The notes under the pieces are model-generated. The model worked only from the letters and a program-made list of their open reading frames with translations, had not been told where the DNA came from and did not search any database. Shown in pieces: positions 6,967 through 13,740 of a DNA stretch of 64,000 bases (its first letter is position 1; every line of letters begins with the position of its first letter). The position numbers were made by a program, and so were the translations under genes. Location: positions 1-64,000 of the forward strand of contig NZ_JABEMG010000001.1 of assembly GCF_013004695.1 (NCBI RefSeq), given 5' to 3'. This stretch comes from Promicromonospora citrea. GTDB lineage: Bacteria; Actinomycetota; Actinomycetes; Actinomycetales; Cellulomonadaceae.

Positions 6967-7931
6967 GCCGCCACCTCCGCCCTCGCCGGCCGCTCCGCGG
7001 CGCCGGACTCACCCGTGAGCGCGAGGAACACGTCGTCGAGCGTGGGCGCCCGCACGGCCCAGTGCTCCGGCACGACGCCGGTGTCCTCGACCGTGGTGAG
7101 CACGGACCGCACGTGCGCGACGGACCCGTCGGTCGGCACGCGGACGCGGGTGCCGTCGACGGAGACCGGTCCGAGCGCACGGGCGACGCGCGCGGCGTCG
7201 GCGGCCGAGGCGAGGTCGAGCTCGACGCCCGCCTCGCCCACCTCGCGCTTGAGCCGCGCGGGTGCGCCCTCTGCGACCACGCGCCCGCCGTCGACGAGCG
7301 CGACGCGCTGGGCGAGCCGGTCGGCCTCCTCGAGGTACTGGGTGGTGAGCAGGACGCTCGTGCCGCCCGCGACGACGTCGCGGACGACGTCCCAGAGCGC
7401 CTGCCGTGAGCGGGGGTCGAGACCGGTGGTCGGCTCGTCGAGGTACATGACGCGCGGGCGCGTGAGCAGGCCCGCCGCGAGGTCGAGGCGCCGTCGCATG
7501 CCTCCCGACCAGGTGCCGACGCGGCGGCCCGCGGCGGCGGTGAGGTCGAAGGCGGCGAGCAGCTCCTCCACGCGGTCACGGATCGCGCGCCGCGGCAGGT
7601 GCGCGAGGTGGCCCATCATCGCGAGGTTCTCGGCACCGGTGAGCTTGTCGTCGACGGCGACCTGCTGTCCGGTGAGGCTGATCAGCTCGCGGACGCGGCG
7701 GGCGTCGGCGACGACGTCGAGACCCGCGACGGTCGCCCGGCCGGCGTCGGGCCGCAGGAGCGTGGACAGGATGCGGACGGTGGTGGTCTTGCCCGCGCCG
7801 TTGGGCCCGAGCAGCGCGAGGACGGTGCCCTCGTCGACCTCCAGGTCGAGCCCGTCCAGCACGGGCGTGGGCGGTGCGCCCCGCCGGGCGAAGGACTTGC
7901 GCAGCCCTTCCGCCGTGACGATCGCGGTCAT
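6963..7931 (-). CDS. ABC exporter ATPase (DrrA-like)
   Basis: A 322-residue ATPase with Walker A GPNGAGKTT at residues 42-50, the ABC signature WSGGMRRRLDLA, Walker B VMYLDEPTTGLDP and the H-loop replaced by Gln (LLTTQYLEEAD), all typical of the DrrA/CcmA exporter branch. The C-terminal 90 residues form the DrrA-type extension. The start at 7931 has AAGGGAT upstream; the frame is open much further but the extra sequence is not protein-like. It is the first gene of the drrA-drrB-DUF2306 operon and is divergent from a TetR-family gene, the probable repressor. Confidence 0.9.
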   Translation of the reverse strand: MTAIVTAEGLRKSFARRGAPPTPVLDGLDLEVDEGTVLALLGPNGAGKTTTVRILSTLLRPDAGRATVAGLDVVADARRVRELISLTGQQVAVDDKLTGAENLAMMGHLAHLPRRAIRDRVEELLAAFDLTAAAGRRVGTWSGGMRRRLDLAAGLLTRPRVMYLDEPTTGLDPRSRQALWDVVRDVVAGGTSVLLTTQYLEEADRLAQRVALVDGGRVVAEGAPARLKREVGEAGVELDLASAADAARVARALGPVSVDGTRVRVPTDGSVAHVRSVLTTVEDTGVVPEHWAVRAPTLDDVFLALTGESGAAERPARAEVAA

Positions 7932-10616: not shown

Positions 10617-11222
10617 TCAGGAGCTCGTGAGAGTACGCCCTAGCACCCGGGACACGATCCACGTGATCTCGTCGGCGGTCTCGCGCGGCGTCGCCGACGG
10701 CTGCATGACGTGGCTCAGGGCGGTCCGCACCACGACGTCGATCACGGCAGCCACCCGGTCCGGCTCCAGGTCGAGCCCGTACCGGTCCACCCGGTCCGCG
10801 ATGACCACCTTGACCGTGCCGAGCAGCGACTCCGCGTGCGTCGTGAGCAGCGGCAGCAGCTCGGTGTCCGCCCCGTGCGTCGCCGAGACGATCGCCCGCA
10901 GCAGGGCGTTGTCCTGCGCGATCTCGAGCGTGCGCTCGAGGGCCGCGCGGATCCCGGCCAGCAGATCGTCGGGGTGCGCGTCGAAGCCCTCGACGATCGA
11001 GAACACGAACCCGGCCGACTCCGTGAGCACCATCGCCTCCGCGAGGTCCTCGCGGCTGCCGACGGCGTTGTAGACCGTCTGCCTGCTCACCCCTGCCTCG
11101 GCCGCGAGGCGGCCCATCGTGACCTTCGACCAGCCGTGCGCGCACGTCAGGCGCACCGCGGCCGCGATGATCCGGCTGCGGCTGGAGATCGGGTCCTCAG
11201 GCCCCCCGTTGACCTCGGCCAT
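10617..11222 (-). CDS. TetR-family transcriptional regulator
   Basis: A 201-residue TetR protein with a standard N-terminal HTH (SRIIAAAVRLTCAHGWSKVTMGRLAAEAGVSRQTVYNAVGSREDLAEAMV, residues about 15-64) and a helical ligand domain. The residues between ATG 11222 and the TACTAT box (six-base gap) suggest a leaderless mRNA. It is divergent from the NYN-LOTUS gene across a 160-base region carrying a long inverted repeat, and it precedes the LLM oxidoreductase gene, so either could be its target. Confidence 0.85.
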   Translation of the reverse strand: MAEVNGGPEDPISSRSRIIAAAVRLTCAHGWSKVTMGRLAAEAGVSRQTVYNAVGSREDLAEAMVLTESAGFVFSIVEGFDAHPDDLLAGIRAALERTLEIAQDNALLRAIVSATHGADTELLPLLTTHAESLLGTVKVVIADRVDRYGLDLEPDRVAAVIDVVVRTALSHVMQPSATPRETADEITWIVSRVLGRTLTSS

Positions 11223-11228
11223 GCCCTG

Positions 11229-11234
11229 ATAGTA
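11229..11234 (-). promoter_or_regulatory. Leaderless -10 box of the second TetR gene
   Basis: TACTAT on the minus strand, six bases before the ATG at 11222. It is one of the best -10 matches in the window. Confidence 0.5.
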
Positions 11235-11255
11235 AGGAACGAGCCGTCAGAAGTC

Positions 11256-11291
11256 CGGGCGAAACGGCCCCTGCCGACACCGTTTCACCCG
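11256..11291. promoter_or_regulatory. 12-bp inverted repeat, probable operator
   Basis: CGGGCGAAACGG (11256-11267) and CCGTTTCACCCG (11280-11291) are inverted copies with one mismatch, separated by 12 bases. They lie between the divergent TetR and NYN genes, about 25 bases upstream of the TetR -10 box. The centre-to-centre distance suits a dimer or two dimers; autoregulation by the TetR protein is inferred. Confidence 0.55.
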
Positions 11292-11369
11292 CTCGCCGTT
11301 TTCTGCATGCGGAGCGCTCGTGCGCTGCCGGCCCGTCCTGTTCGTCCGATGCCACGGGACGAGACCCCC

Positions 11370-11375
11370 TAGAGT
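11370..11375 (+). promoter_or_regulatory. Leaderless -10 box of the NYN-LOTUS gene
   Basis: TAGAGT with a seven-base gap to ATG 11383. Confidence 0.5.
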
Positions 11376-11382
11376 GGCTGGC

Positions 11383-12633
11383 ATGGACCTCGAGGAACGC
11401 CTGGCAGTCTTCATCGACTACGAGAACCTGGCGCTGGGCGCCAGGGAGCACCTGGGCGGGATGCAGTTCGACTTCGGTCCGATCGCCGACGCGCTCGCCG
11501 TCCGCGGCCGCGTCGTGGCGCGCCGCGCCTACGCGGACTGGTCGTACTTCGACGAGGACCGGCGCATGCTCACCCGGCACCAGGTCGAGCTCATCGAGAT
11601 GACGCAGCGCATGGGCGCCTCCCGTAAGAACGCCGCCGACATCAAGATGGTGGTCGACGCCATCGAGATGGCCTTCGAGCGCGACTACATCTCGACGTTC
11701 GTCATGTGCACGGGCGACAGCGACTTCTCCCCCCTCGTCCACAAGCTGCGCGAGCTCAACAAGCGCGTGATCGGCGTCGGCGTCGAGAAGTCGACGTCCC
11801 GCCTGCTGCCCGCCGCGTGCGACGAGTTCCTGTTCTACGACCGCCTCGAGGGCGTCGAGGTGCCCGAGGAGGACCAGGGCGCCCCGAAGCGCACGTCCCG
11901 GACGCGCAAGAGCACCCCGGCGAGGACCCCGGCGCGGCGGAAGCCCGCGGAGCCCGAGACGACCGCGGAGCCCGAGACGCCCGCTGCCACGGAACCCACC
12001 GAGACCGCGGAGCCTGCCGAGACGACCGAGACCGCACCCGCCCGGTCGGGCGGCCGCCGCCGGAAGAAGGCCGAGCCCGCTCCGGCGCCCGTCGACCTGG
12101 TGCCCGAGGCCGAGGCCGACGTCGTCGGGACCGGCGCGGACGAGACGCCGGACGAGGCCGACGACGACGTGCCCATGGAGGTGCGCGTGGCGCAGACCCT
12201 GGCCGACCTGCAGTCGTCCACCAGCGGCGCCGTTACGGCCTCCGCGCTCAAGCGCACGCTGCTGCGCAAGGACCCGACGTTCAGCGAGTCCGACTACGGC
12301 TTCCGCACGTTCGGCGAGTTCCTGCGGTTCCTCGCGGACCGCGGCTTCGTCGAGCTCGCCACGGGCCCGTCGGCCGGAGACCCCGAGGTCTCGCTGCCCG
12401 AGCAGGGCGACACCGACGCCGCGTTCACGCTGCTGCGCGCAGTGGTGCAGGAGCAGAACGGCTCGGCCGCCCTGTCGGGACTGAAGAACGCGATCCGCAA
12501 GAAGCGTCCCGACTTCTCCGAGAAGGCCCTCGGCTTCCGCGGGTTCCTCCAGTTCGCCAAGGCGGCGGAGGCAGCGGGCTCGGTCGCCCTCGCCTGGGAC
12601 GACGACGCCGACGACTACCTCGTCACCGCCTGA
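11383..12633 (+). CDS. NYN-domain (PIN-like) protein with two OST-HTH/LOTUS domains
   Basis: A 416-residue cytoplasmic protein. Residues 1-165 form a NYN/LabA-type PIN fold: VFIDYENLALG, ADIKMVVDAIEMAFERDYIS and FVMCTGDSDFSPLVHKLRE hold the acidic residues expected to bind metal in an RNase active site. A Pro/Glu/Thr-rich, Lys/Arg-rich linker (about 165-260) follows. Two OST-HTH/LOTUS modules (about 265-325 and 345-405) share the pattern ALKRTLLRKDPTFSESDYGF / GLKNAIRKKRPDFSEKALGF. LOTUS domains bind RNA, including G-rich or structured RNA, so an RNA-processing or decay role is likely. The upstream ATG at 11320 is rejected because 11383 has a good -10 box and a conserved N-terminus. Confidence 0.85.
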   Translation: MDLEERLAVFIDYENLALGAREHLGGMQFDFGPIADALAVRGRVVARRAYADWSYFDEDRRMLTRHQVELIEMTQRMGASRKNAADIKMVVDAIEMAFERDYISTFVMCTGDSDFSPLVHKLRELNKRVIGVGVEKSTSRLLPAACDEFLFYDRLEGVEVPEEDQGAPKRTSRTRKSTPARTPARRKPAEPETTAEPETPAATEPTETAEPAETTETAPARSGGRRRKKAEPAPAPVDLVPEAEADVVGTGADETPDEADDDVPMEVRVAQTLADLQSSTSGAVTASALKRTLLRKDPTFSESDYGFRTFGEFLRFLADRGFVELATGPSAGDPEVSLPEQGDTDAAFTLLRAVVQEQNGSAALSGLKNAIRKKRPDFSEKALGFRGFLQFAKAAEAAGSVALAWDDDADDYLVTA

Positions 12634-12675
12634 GCCGGCCGCGGCCCCCGCGACCTGGGCTCCCGGCCCCTCGCG

Positions 12676-13740
12676 TCACAGCAGGCCCGGTACCTCGGCG
12701 AGGCGGCGGGCGAGCTCGGCACCGTCGCGACCGGTGACCGTCGGCACCGGCGCGTCGGCGTCCCGCTCCGGGTCGCCGCCGCCGGTCGGCGCGTTGCCCG
12801 CGAGCACCTGCTGCCCGCCGGTGAGCTCGCGGATCGCCACGGCCCGCACCCGCCCCGGGCGACGGCGCGCGGCCCGGTCGTAGATCTCCGGGTCGTGCTG
12901 GCCGTCGTCGCCCACGAGCAGCCACCGCACGTGCGGGAACCACGACATGAGCAGCTCGAGGCTCGCATCCTTGTGCGCGGGGCCGCTGCGGAACCAGCCG
13001 GTCAGGGTCGGCCCCCAGTCGGTGAGCAGCAGCGGCCCGGCCGGGTAGCCGTTGCGCTCGAGGAACGCGCGCAGCGTGCCCGCGGTGTTCCACGCACCGG
13101 TGGACAGATAGAAGAAGGCGGCGTCCGGGTGGGCCTCGCCCAGCGTGCGGTAGAGCTCGGCCATCCCGGGCACGGCACGCCGCGAGCTGGAGTGACGCAC
13201 GAAGGTGTTCCACGCCGCGAGCAGGGGCCTCGGCACCGCCGTCACCATGGTCGTGTCGTCCATGTCGCTGATGACGCCGAACCGGGTGCTCTCGTCGAGC
13301 ACCACGACCGTCGCCTCACCGACCACGGGCTCGGCGACGTCGGGGCAGGTGAGCGTCACCCGGTGCGCGCCGGCGGCCAACGGCTCGTCCGTCGGCACCT
13401 CGACGTCGACGTACCCCGCCCGGTCGCTGGCGACGTCCGACGTCGTGGCGCCGACCTGGACCCGCACGCGCTGGTGCGGCGCCGGGACGGTGAGGTAGTG
13501 CCGGAAGCCGCGCCGCCCGGCACGCAGCAGGTCCCGGTCGGGGCCCGTGTGCCCGCGCGGGGCGAGCAGCACCCGGGCGAGCACGCGGACGCGCTCGGGC
13601 GTGCCGTAGCCGGTGTACGCCTCCAGGCGAGGGCGCCAGCCGAGGCGGGACAGCGTCCACCCCGCCGCGGCGTAGAGGTGGTCCTCCACCACCGCGGCGA
13701 GGTGCGGACGCTGCGAGGGATGCGGGGTCGGGGTCGCCAT
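12676..13740 (-). CDS. App1-like phosphatidate phosphatase (DUF2183)
   Basis: A 354-residue protein whose C-terminal half matches the App1/DUF2183 HAD-type phosphatase domain. SDMDDT at about residue 160 is the DxDxT nucleophile motif, YLSTGAWNTAG the second motif, and LVGDDGQHDPEIY the acidic motif IV. The yeast relative dephosphorylates phosphatidic acid. The N-terminal half (about 1-150) contains a beta-rich segment, ending in VTLTCPDVAEPVVGEATVVV. It lies 16 bases after the sugar permease gene on the same strand, so read-through from the sugar operon is possible though no functional link is obvious. Confidence 0.83.
   Translation of the reverse strand: MATPTPHPSQRPHLAAVVEDHLYAAAGWTLSRLGWRPRLEAYTGYGTPERVRVLARVLLAPRGHTGPDRDLLRAGRRGFRHYLTVPAPHQRVRVQVGATTSDVASDRAGYVDVEVPTDEPLAAGAHRVTLTCPDVAEPVVGEATVVVLDESTRFGVISDMDDTTMVTAVPRPLLAAWNTFVRHSSSRRAVPGMAELYRTLGEAHPDAAFFYLSTGAWNTAGTLRAFLERNGYPAGPLLLTDWGPTLTGWFRSGPAHKDASLELLMSWFPHVRWLLVGDDGQHDPEIYDRAARRRPGRVRAVAIRELTGGQQVLAGNAPTGGGDPERDADAPVPTVTGRDGAELARRLAEVPGLL

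Follow-up and report, generated by a model that had tools for sequence, protein, structure and literature searches.

Bacterial proteins that join an NYN domain (DUF88/LK-nuclease) to one or two OST-HTH (LOTUS) modules were described by Anantharaman, Zhang and Aravind in 2010 as standalone predicted RNases (PMC2848206), and in 2018 the function of bacterial LOTUS domains was still to be investigated (PMC6168497). The NYN domain of MARF1 (Limkain b1) is an endoribonuclease stimulated by Mn or Mg, and its activity is strongly reduced in a D426/D427 double mutant (PMC6294520). The CRISPR-associated NYN protein of Bacteroides fragilis is a Mn-dependent RNase whose cleavage is abolished by D13A (PMC11346440). 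Here we analyze a gene for an NYN protein with two C-terminal LOTUS modules in a 64,000-nucleotide stretch of the Promicromonospora citrea genome (positions 1 to 64,000 of contig NZ_JABEMG010000001.1; the window). The gene of this soil actinobacterium is a member of the bacterial LK-nuclease and OST-HTH family, an architecture in print since 2010, and the finding is thus real but ordinary in kind. The gene probably encodes a self-contained endoribonuclease, translated from a leaderless mRNA, in which a metal-bound NYN domain cuts RNA delivered by the tandem LOTUS modules.

The gene for an NYN domain, a charged linker and two LOTUS modules is confirmed with exactly the extent and domain order that the original prediction gave it (Table 1). 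Its ATG start at 11383 is shared with relatives, as the match begins at query residue 1 with ATG, GTG or TTG in 80 of the 80 relatives fetched. These were obtained from a scan of GTDB genomes that gave 518 pattern matches and 486 relatives; the best 80 were kept, which favours conserved copies, and together with the window they make up 81 loci. The nearest relatives (L003-L011) belong to Promicromonospora and are 81-85% identical, and further ones come from Isoptericola, Cellulosimicrobium, Oerskovia, Ruania, Georgenia, Brachybacterium and a Propionibacteriales metagenome-assembled genome (MAG), with many from Micromonospora, Catellatospora and related genera. Pfam matches OST-HTH (PF12872, E=2.4e-11) in two stretches of the protein, and both the NYN and OST-HTH families are matched in all 28 orthologues scanned of the 81. 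In addition, hhalign detects homology between the two LOTUS modules, at a probability of 97.3% (E 2.3e-11) and with 34% identity in 58 aligned columns; the probabilities are 0.4% and 0.1% when they are compared to the NYN domain. The linker is indeed charged, with 25 acidic and 15 basic among its 107 residues; it is variable, of Pro/Glu/Ala composition, and ranges from 41 to 141 residues across the 81 sequences.

Structure prediction supports the NYN fold. The AlphaFold2 model of the full-length protein is weak, with a mean predicted local distance difference test (pLDDT) of 64.1 and a predicted template modelling score (pTM) of 0.31, and its NYN domain is poor, hence this domain was refolded alone with 38 sequences, reaching pLDDT 89.0 and pTM 0.86. 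Three of the five NYN-alone models have pLDDT 86-89, and the other two 72 and 69. By VIA-align, the model superimposes on VPA0982 from Vibrio parahaemolyticus (2qip) with Z 20.9 and a root-mean-square deviation (rmsd) of 2.0 over 152 residues at 27% identity, and on the NYN domain of MARF1 with Z 19.8 (5yaa, rmsd 2.5, 146 residues) and 18.7 (6fdl, 2.5, 144 residues), after which only unrelated structures follow, from Z 8.7 downward. Foldseek agrees on the fold (E 1.4e-12 and 8.9e-7). From residue ~270 onward, the full-length model has pLDDT mostly 81-96 and contains two directly abutting winged helices. The second of these, LOTUS2, matches the LOTUS domains of TDRD7 (3rco, Z 10.6, rmsd 2.1 over 73 residues) and TDRD5 (3s93, Z 10.5, rmsd 2.3 over 77 residues) as well as the structure 2lh9 (Z 9.9), with the first non-LOTUS winged helix, 6qh0, close behind at Z 8.7.

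The acidic active site that the original prediction called for is present. D12, D86 and D112 align with VPA0982 chain positions 17, 95 and 118 in the profile alignment, which are residues 14, 92 and 115 if the offset is 3, and these residues are equivalent to D358, D426 and D452 of MARF1 and to D13, D118 and D143 of the Bacteroides NYN protein (PMC11346440). Five acids, D12, D86, D92, D112 and D114, are invariant in 81/81 orthologues and in all 20 rows when three NYN-LOTUS types are aligned, which rules out a decayed active site. The basic residues K290, R291 and R295 in LOTUS1 and K368 and R372 in LOTUS2 are likewise invariant in all 81 sequences.

The NYN domain and LOTUS1 are under strong purifying selection, and LOTUS2 under weaker selection. 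In comparisons to nine Promicromonospora loci, the nonsynonymous substitution rate (dN) of the NYN domain is 0 for seven loci and 0.003-0.004 for the other two, at a synonymous rate (dS) of 0.22-0.32. The median dN/dS falls from 0.67 in the linker to 0.158 in LOTUS2 and 0.025 in LOTUS1. The positions invariant in the 81 sequences are 90/157 in the NYN domain, 20/75 in LOTUS1 and 18/75 in LOTUS2. To place these values, RecA, a 390-residue RpoB segment and ribosomal protein S12 were compared in the genomes of 12 relatives wherever they were found (RecA was not found in the L038 genome and is split in that of L013; RpoB was not found in that of L057). The identity of the NYN domain to the window protein in these genomes is 100, 92.4, 96.2, 94.9, 94.9, 90.4, 93.6, 93.0, 84.7, 84.7, 85.4 and 81.5%. 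The NYN identity exceeds that of RecA in six of 10 pairs, equals it in one and falls below it in three, and exceeds that of the RpoB segment in 10 of 11 pairs; a recount by one method for all genes puts it above RpoB in nine of 11, equal after rounding in one and lower in one. The proportion of synonymous change is greater in the NYN domain than in RecA in 8/10 pairs and than in RpoB in 11/11, and recent transfer is therefore not supported as the cause of the high identity. This RecA-like constraint suggests a basic role where the gene is present. In the genome of L013 (Isoptericola chiayiensis), the split RecA domain (L172 and L173) is broken by ~1.07 kb within an 814-residue frame without stops, an interruption that looks like an intein.

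The gene start carries a second conserved signal. In 79 of the 81 loci, a TANNNT motif, the form of a -10 element, ends 6 bases (22 loci), 7 (56) or 8 (1) upstream of the start codon, the exceptions being two Hamadaea MAGs (L055 and L056), whereas at random positions of the same, mostly coding, sequences such a motif ends 4-9 bases away in 0.34%. A looser criterion, applied to the genes called automatically at these loci, gives the arrangement in 95/723 other genes and in only 59/78 copies of this gene, because many starts were placed too far upstream. Because the element ends 6-8 nucleotides before the start codon, we predict a conserved leaderless mRNA that starts at its own start codon. Such signals have been read as marking leaderless genes, which make up an average of 19.2% of genes in Actinobacteria (PMC3160421); a leaderless gene is in itself nothing unusual in this group. 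A sigma-70 and terminator scan of 11150-12800, with a consensus that excludes TANNNT promoters, returned nothing.

From the computed architecture, fold, intact active-site residues, selection and conserved -10 element, we propose the following model for this endoribonuclease. The NYN domain would bind a divalent metal through D12, D86 and D112 and cut single-stranded RNA, while the two minimal LOTUS modules, carried on the flexible linker, would bring RNA to it, possibly through the invariant K290, R291, R295, K368 and R372. The mRNA would have no leader. RNase activity and metal dependence are expected by analogy to MARF1 and the Bacteroides fragilis CRISPR NYN protein, and the role would be a basic one in mRNA decay or RNA processing that is not conditioned by TetR.

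Several observations weigh against this model. The counterpart of D427 in MARF1, an active-site residue adjacent to D426 (PMC6294520), is I87 here. Each LOTUS module alone scores barely above the Pfam cut-off (24.7 and 24.6 bits against a curated 23.8 in a search of the own genome). Because the structural matches of LOTUS1 are generic winged helices (MCM, DtxR) and include no LOTUS structure, its assignment rests on sequence, and RNA binding by the two modules is presumed from their family. LOTUS domains can also bind proteins. The type is patchily present in the class (7 of 98 genomes, described below), hence the protein is not universally essential, and an acyltransferase gene found next to it in part of the group may mark shared synteny or an operon in place of a self-contained gene. 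Finally, our search, mainly of the non-subscription literature, found no biochemical or functional study of this actinobacterial type. The original prediction called bacterial versions little studied; the architecture itself had been described in 2010 (PMC2848206).

The alternative that survives best is that the enzyme acts on a large conserved partner, most simply the ribosome, with the LOTUS modules and linker tuning recruitment and the NYN surface constrained as well. It refines the endoribonuclease model more than it contradicts it, and we regard it as possible but not as the likelier course. That over half of the NYN positions are invariant, far more than the five acids, seems to exceed catalytic need and would fit docking on a conserved machine, and the comparisons to RecA and RpoB, together with the synonymous change that argues against recent transfer, point the same way. 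In addition, Rae1/YacP, an NYN enzyme of Bacillus subtilis, is ribosome-dependent (PMC11346440). Against this, S12 is more conserved than the NYN domain in eight of 12 pairs (the NYN domain is higher in three and equal in one). Since dS within Promicromonospora is lower in the NYN domain than in the LOTUS modules (0.32-0.60) or the linker (0.59-0.86), part of the constraint may also lie at the nucleotide level. The choice of the best 80 of 486 relatives raises apparent conservation too, but the NYN domain is still 78-85% identical in six class-sample genomes that were not selected in this way. In its fullest form, this alternative makes the protein a core RNA-processing or decay enzyme of some actinobacteria that docks on the ribosome or RNA polymerase, has an NYN domain about as constrained as RecA and is translated from a leaderless mRNA; we put this forward tentatively, as a minority view. 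If it holds, the protein would represent an uncharacterized class of housekeeping RNase and a bacterial model for the choice of RNA by NYN-LOTUS enzymes such as MARF1.

Another alternative takes the LOTUS modules as protein adaptors, for instance for a DEAD-box helicase, rather than as RNA binders, in the way that the LOTUS domains of animal Oskar, TDRD5 and TDRD7 bind Vasa (PMC5458760). We consider this improbable. The C-terminal extension of the extended (Vasa-binding) LOTUS class is absent from both modules in the full-length model, because the last strand of LOTUS2 ends at residue 415 of 416 and LOTUS1 runs directly into LOTUS2, leaving no space for it. Bacterial LOTUS domains are also grouped with the minimal type (PMC6168497).

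Equally doubtful is a conditionally expressed enzyme under the control of the divergent TetR-family regulator, as the original prediction had suggested. The regulator lies upstream of the gene where it was predicted (Table 1), and the two genes are divergent in Promicromonospora. By tblastn (E 1e-15 or better), however, TetR adjoins the gene in only nine of the 81 loci, namely the window and L003-L010, all from this genus. It lies downstream of the gene in Antribacter gilvus (L012) and was not found at the remaining loci, including L011, although its absence is uninformative at L044, L060 and L079, where less than 800 bases lie upstream. The arrangement of the -10 element and start codon is kept without it. 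We thus reject TetR as a conserved partner beyond Promicromonospora, and it is probably not part of a conserved system. Within the genus, a TTTCACCC element in the intergenic region (window positions 11283-11290) is present in the nine aligned TetR loci and absent in the TetR-less L011. It may be an operator or belong to the TetR promoter, and because it tracks the presence of TetR, local control within Promicromonospora is possible, but it may serve the TetR gene alone.

A role as a defence or conflict nuclease against phages or plasmids is very unlikely. In its favour are the best PADLOC match, a weak one to a LabA-like NYN model (E 2.6e-5, 21.7 bits; no defence model matched strongly), and NYN relatives on viral contigs, many of which read as single-LOTUS proteins. 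Against it stand the very slow evolution of the NYN domain and LOTUS1, the lack of a defence gene among the commoner neighbours scanned, and the lack of a tandem-LOTUS relative in viral contigs with the patterns used. Phage cargo was rejected as well: an initial viral scan, with 41 pattern hits, yielded no relative, and none of the 25 relatives from a second reads as the tandem-LOTUS type. The IMG/VR viral or prophage contigs L107-L125 and L127 carry NYN proteins, many with one C-terminal LOTUS module by reading of the sequence.

Of 98 genomes sampled from the class, 50 contain a match to NYN and 21 contain one to OST-HTH. The tandem-LOTUS type, recognized by the 441-base NYN match (profile positions 1-144), is present in seven of these genomes (G000, G019, G041, G059, G075, G090 and G095) and in three of the 38 families; in the six besides that of the window, the NYN domain and both LOTUS modules were also checked by tblastn. 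At the genome level, Pfam OST-HTH misses the tandem modules in G041, G059, G075 and G090, where tblastn with the window protein finds them at 59-73% identity. Seventeen other proteins of the class sample have one LOTUS module each and form two further types; the three NYN-LOTUS types were separated by alignment. The row sets comprised 28 of the 81 orthologues (A1); 19 of 22 class-sample loci and the window (A2), leaving out the fragmentary L096, L103 and L104; and 18 of 80 orthologue loci, 19 of 25 viral loci and the window (A3), leaving out L109 and L125 (near-duplicates), L126 (internal stop) and L128, L130 and L131 (short or poor). The P. citrea genome contains a second NYN match of 30.1 bits (L106, contig C3), close to a gene that reads as carbonic-anhydrase-like; the genome search gave no LOTUS match there.

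No neighbour family, by crude clustering of open reading frames, occurs in more than 18 of the 81 loci. The commonest is the acyltransferase (PF01553, E 2.4e-28), which lies downstream in the same orientation at 18 loci from Promicromonospora soli, Isoptericola, Myceligenerans, Oerskovia, Krasilnikoviella and Cellulosimicrobium, while no copy was seen at the Micromonospora loci. The acyltransferase gene is directly adjacent, with a gap of at most 47 bases by called starts, in eight of the 81 loci (L013, at 7246-7893, L014, L015, L021, L024, L025, L031 and L037), all from Isoptericola or Myceligenerans, and overlaps the gene by 4 bases in L024 and L037. Relatives of the convergent APP1-type phosphatidate phosphatase occur in 15 of the 80 relatives' loci and lie beside the gene in most Promicromonospora loci. 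Among the 15 commoner neighbour genes scanned by Pfam, none is an RNA-processing gene; the others include methionine synthase, methylenetetrahydrofolate reductase, a histidine kinase, glycosidases, a hydrolase, another TetR, and maltokinase-like, methyladenine glycosylase and luciferase-like genes.

Table 1. Features of the NYN-LOTUS locus in window coordinates
Feature	Position	Strand	Evidence
Divergent TetR-family regulator	10617..11222	-	Pfam, tblastn; neighbour within Promicromonospora only
TAGAGT, candidate -10 element ending 7 nucleotides before ATG	11370..11375	+	Conserved TANNNT
NYN-linker-LOTUS-LOTUS protein, 416 residues plus stop	11383..12633	+	Open reading frame listing, Pfam, start shared with relatives
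NYN (DUF88/LK-nuclease) domain, residues 6-152	11398..11838	+	Pfam PF01936, E=1.6e-34; fold match to 2qip, 5yaa, 6fdl
D12 codon, counterpart of VPA0982 D14 / MARF1 D358	11416..11418	+	Alignment, equivalence in PMC11346440, invariant 81/81
D86 codon, counterpart of VPA0982 D92 / MARF1 D426	11638..11640	+	Alignment, PMC11346440, invariant 81/81
D112 codon, counterpart of VPA0982 D115 / MARF1 D452	11716..11718	+	Alignment, PMC11346440, invariant 81/81
Linker, residues 159-265, predicted disordered, fast evolving	11857..12177	+	pLDDT <50 over most, dN/dS
LOTUS module 1, residues 266-340	12178..12402	+	Pfam, AlphaFold2 model, hhalign, dN/dS 0.025
LOTUS module 2, residues 341-415	12403..12627	+	Pfam, AlphaFold2 model, structural matches, hhalign, dN/dS 0.158
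APP1-type phosphatidate phosphatase, convergent next gene	12676-13740	-	PF09949, E 3.5e-49

Bacteria have no CCR4-NOT (PMC6168497). This 416-residue protein with two LOTUS modules would make it possible to test directly whether LOTUS modules choose RNA for NYN cleavage without the eukaryotic decay machinery, and the constraint on its NYN domain suggests a basic task in the actinobacteria that keep the gene. The original prediction likened the protein to animal MARF1/Limkain b1. The likeness holds for the NYN fold, the three active-site aspartates and the position of LOTUS C-terminal to NYN. MARF1, however, has an RNA recognition motif (RRM) and from six (Drosophila) to eight (human) LOTUS domains, and the protein here has two LOTUS modules and no RRM, as Pfam at E up to 1 gives NYN and OST-HTH alone; orthology to MARF1 is therefore rejected.

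Among bacterial proteins, VPA0982 is the closest solved NYN structure, but its crystallized chain of 165 residues is NYN only. The Bacteroides fragilis NYN protein has the same aspartate triad and is a demonstrated Mn-dependent endoribonuclease, but it belongs to a type III-B CRISPR system, and LOTUS is unmentioned in the main text of PMC11346440. The two single-LOTUS types of actinobacterial NYN proteins share the five acids, carry one C-terminal LOTUS module and have 22-38% identity to the window protein across the alignment. The closest match in kind is the LK-nuclease and OST-HTH family of 2010, with an N-terminal NYN/DUF88 domain of PIN-like fold, a single or duplicated C-terminal OST-HTH, a conserved acidic active site and, as among the neighbours scanned here, no conserved link to RNA-processing genes (PMC2848206). 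In contrast to that family at large, the relatives examined in this work carry a pair of LOTUS modules behind a long linker of variable length, and their NYN domain is unusually invariant; the passages of PMC2848206 consulted do not contain the arrangement of the -10 element and start codon. Our analysis thus adds to the described family a RecA-like constraint on the NYN domain beside a freely evolving linker, a deeply conserved -10 element at the start codon, the limited range of the TetR neighbour and a partial link to an acyltransferase gene.
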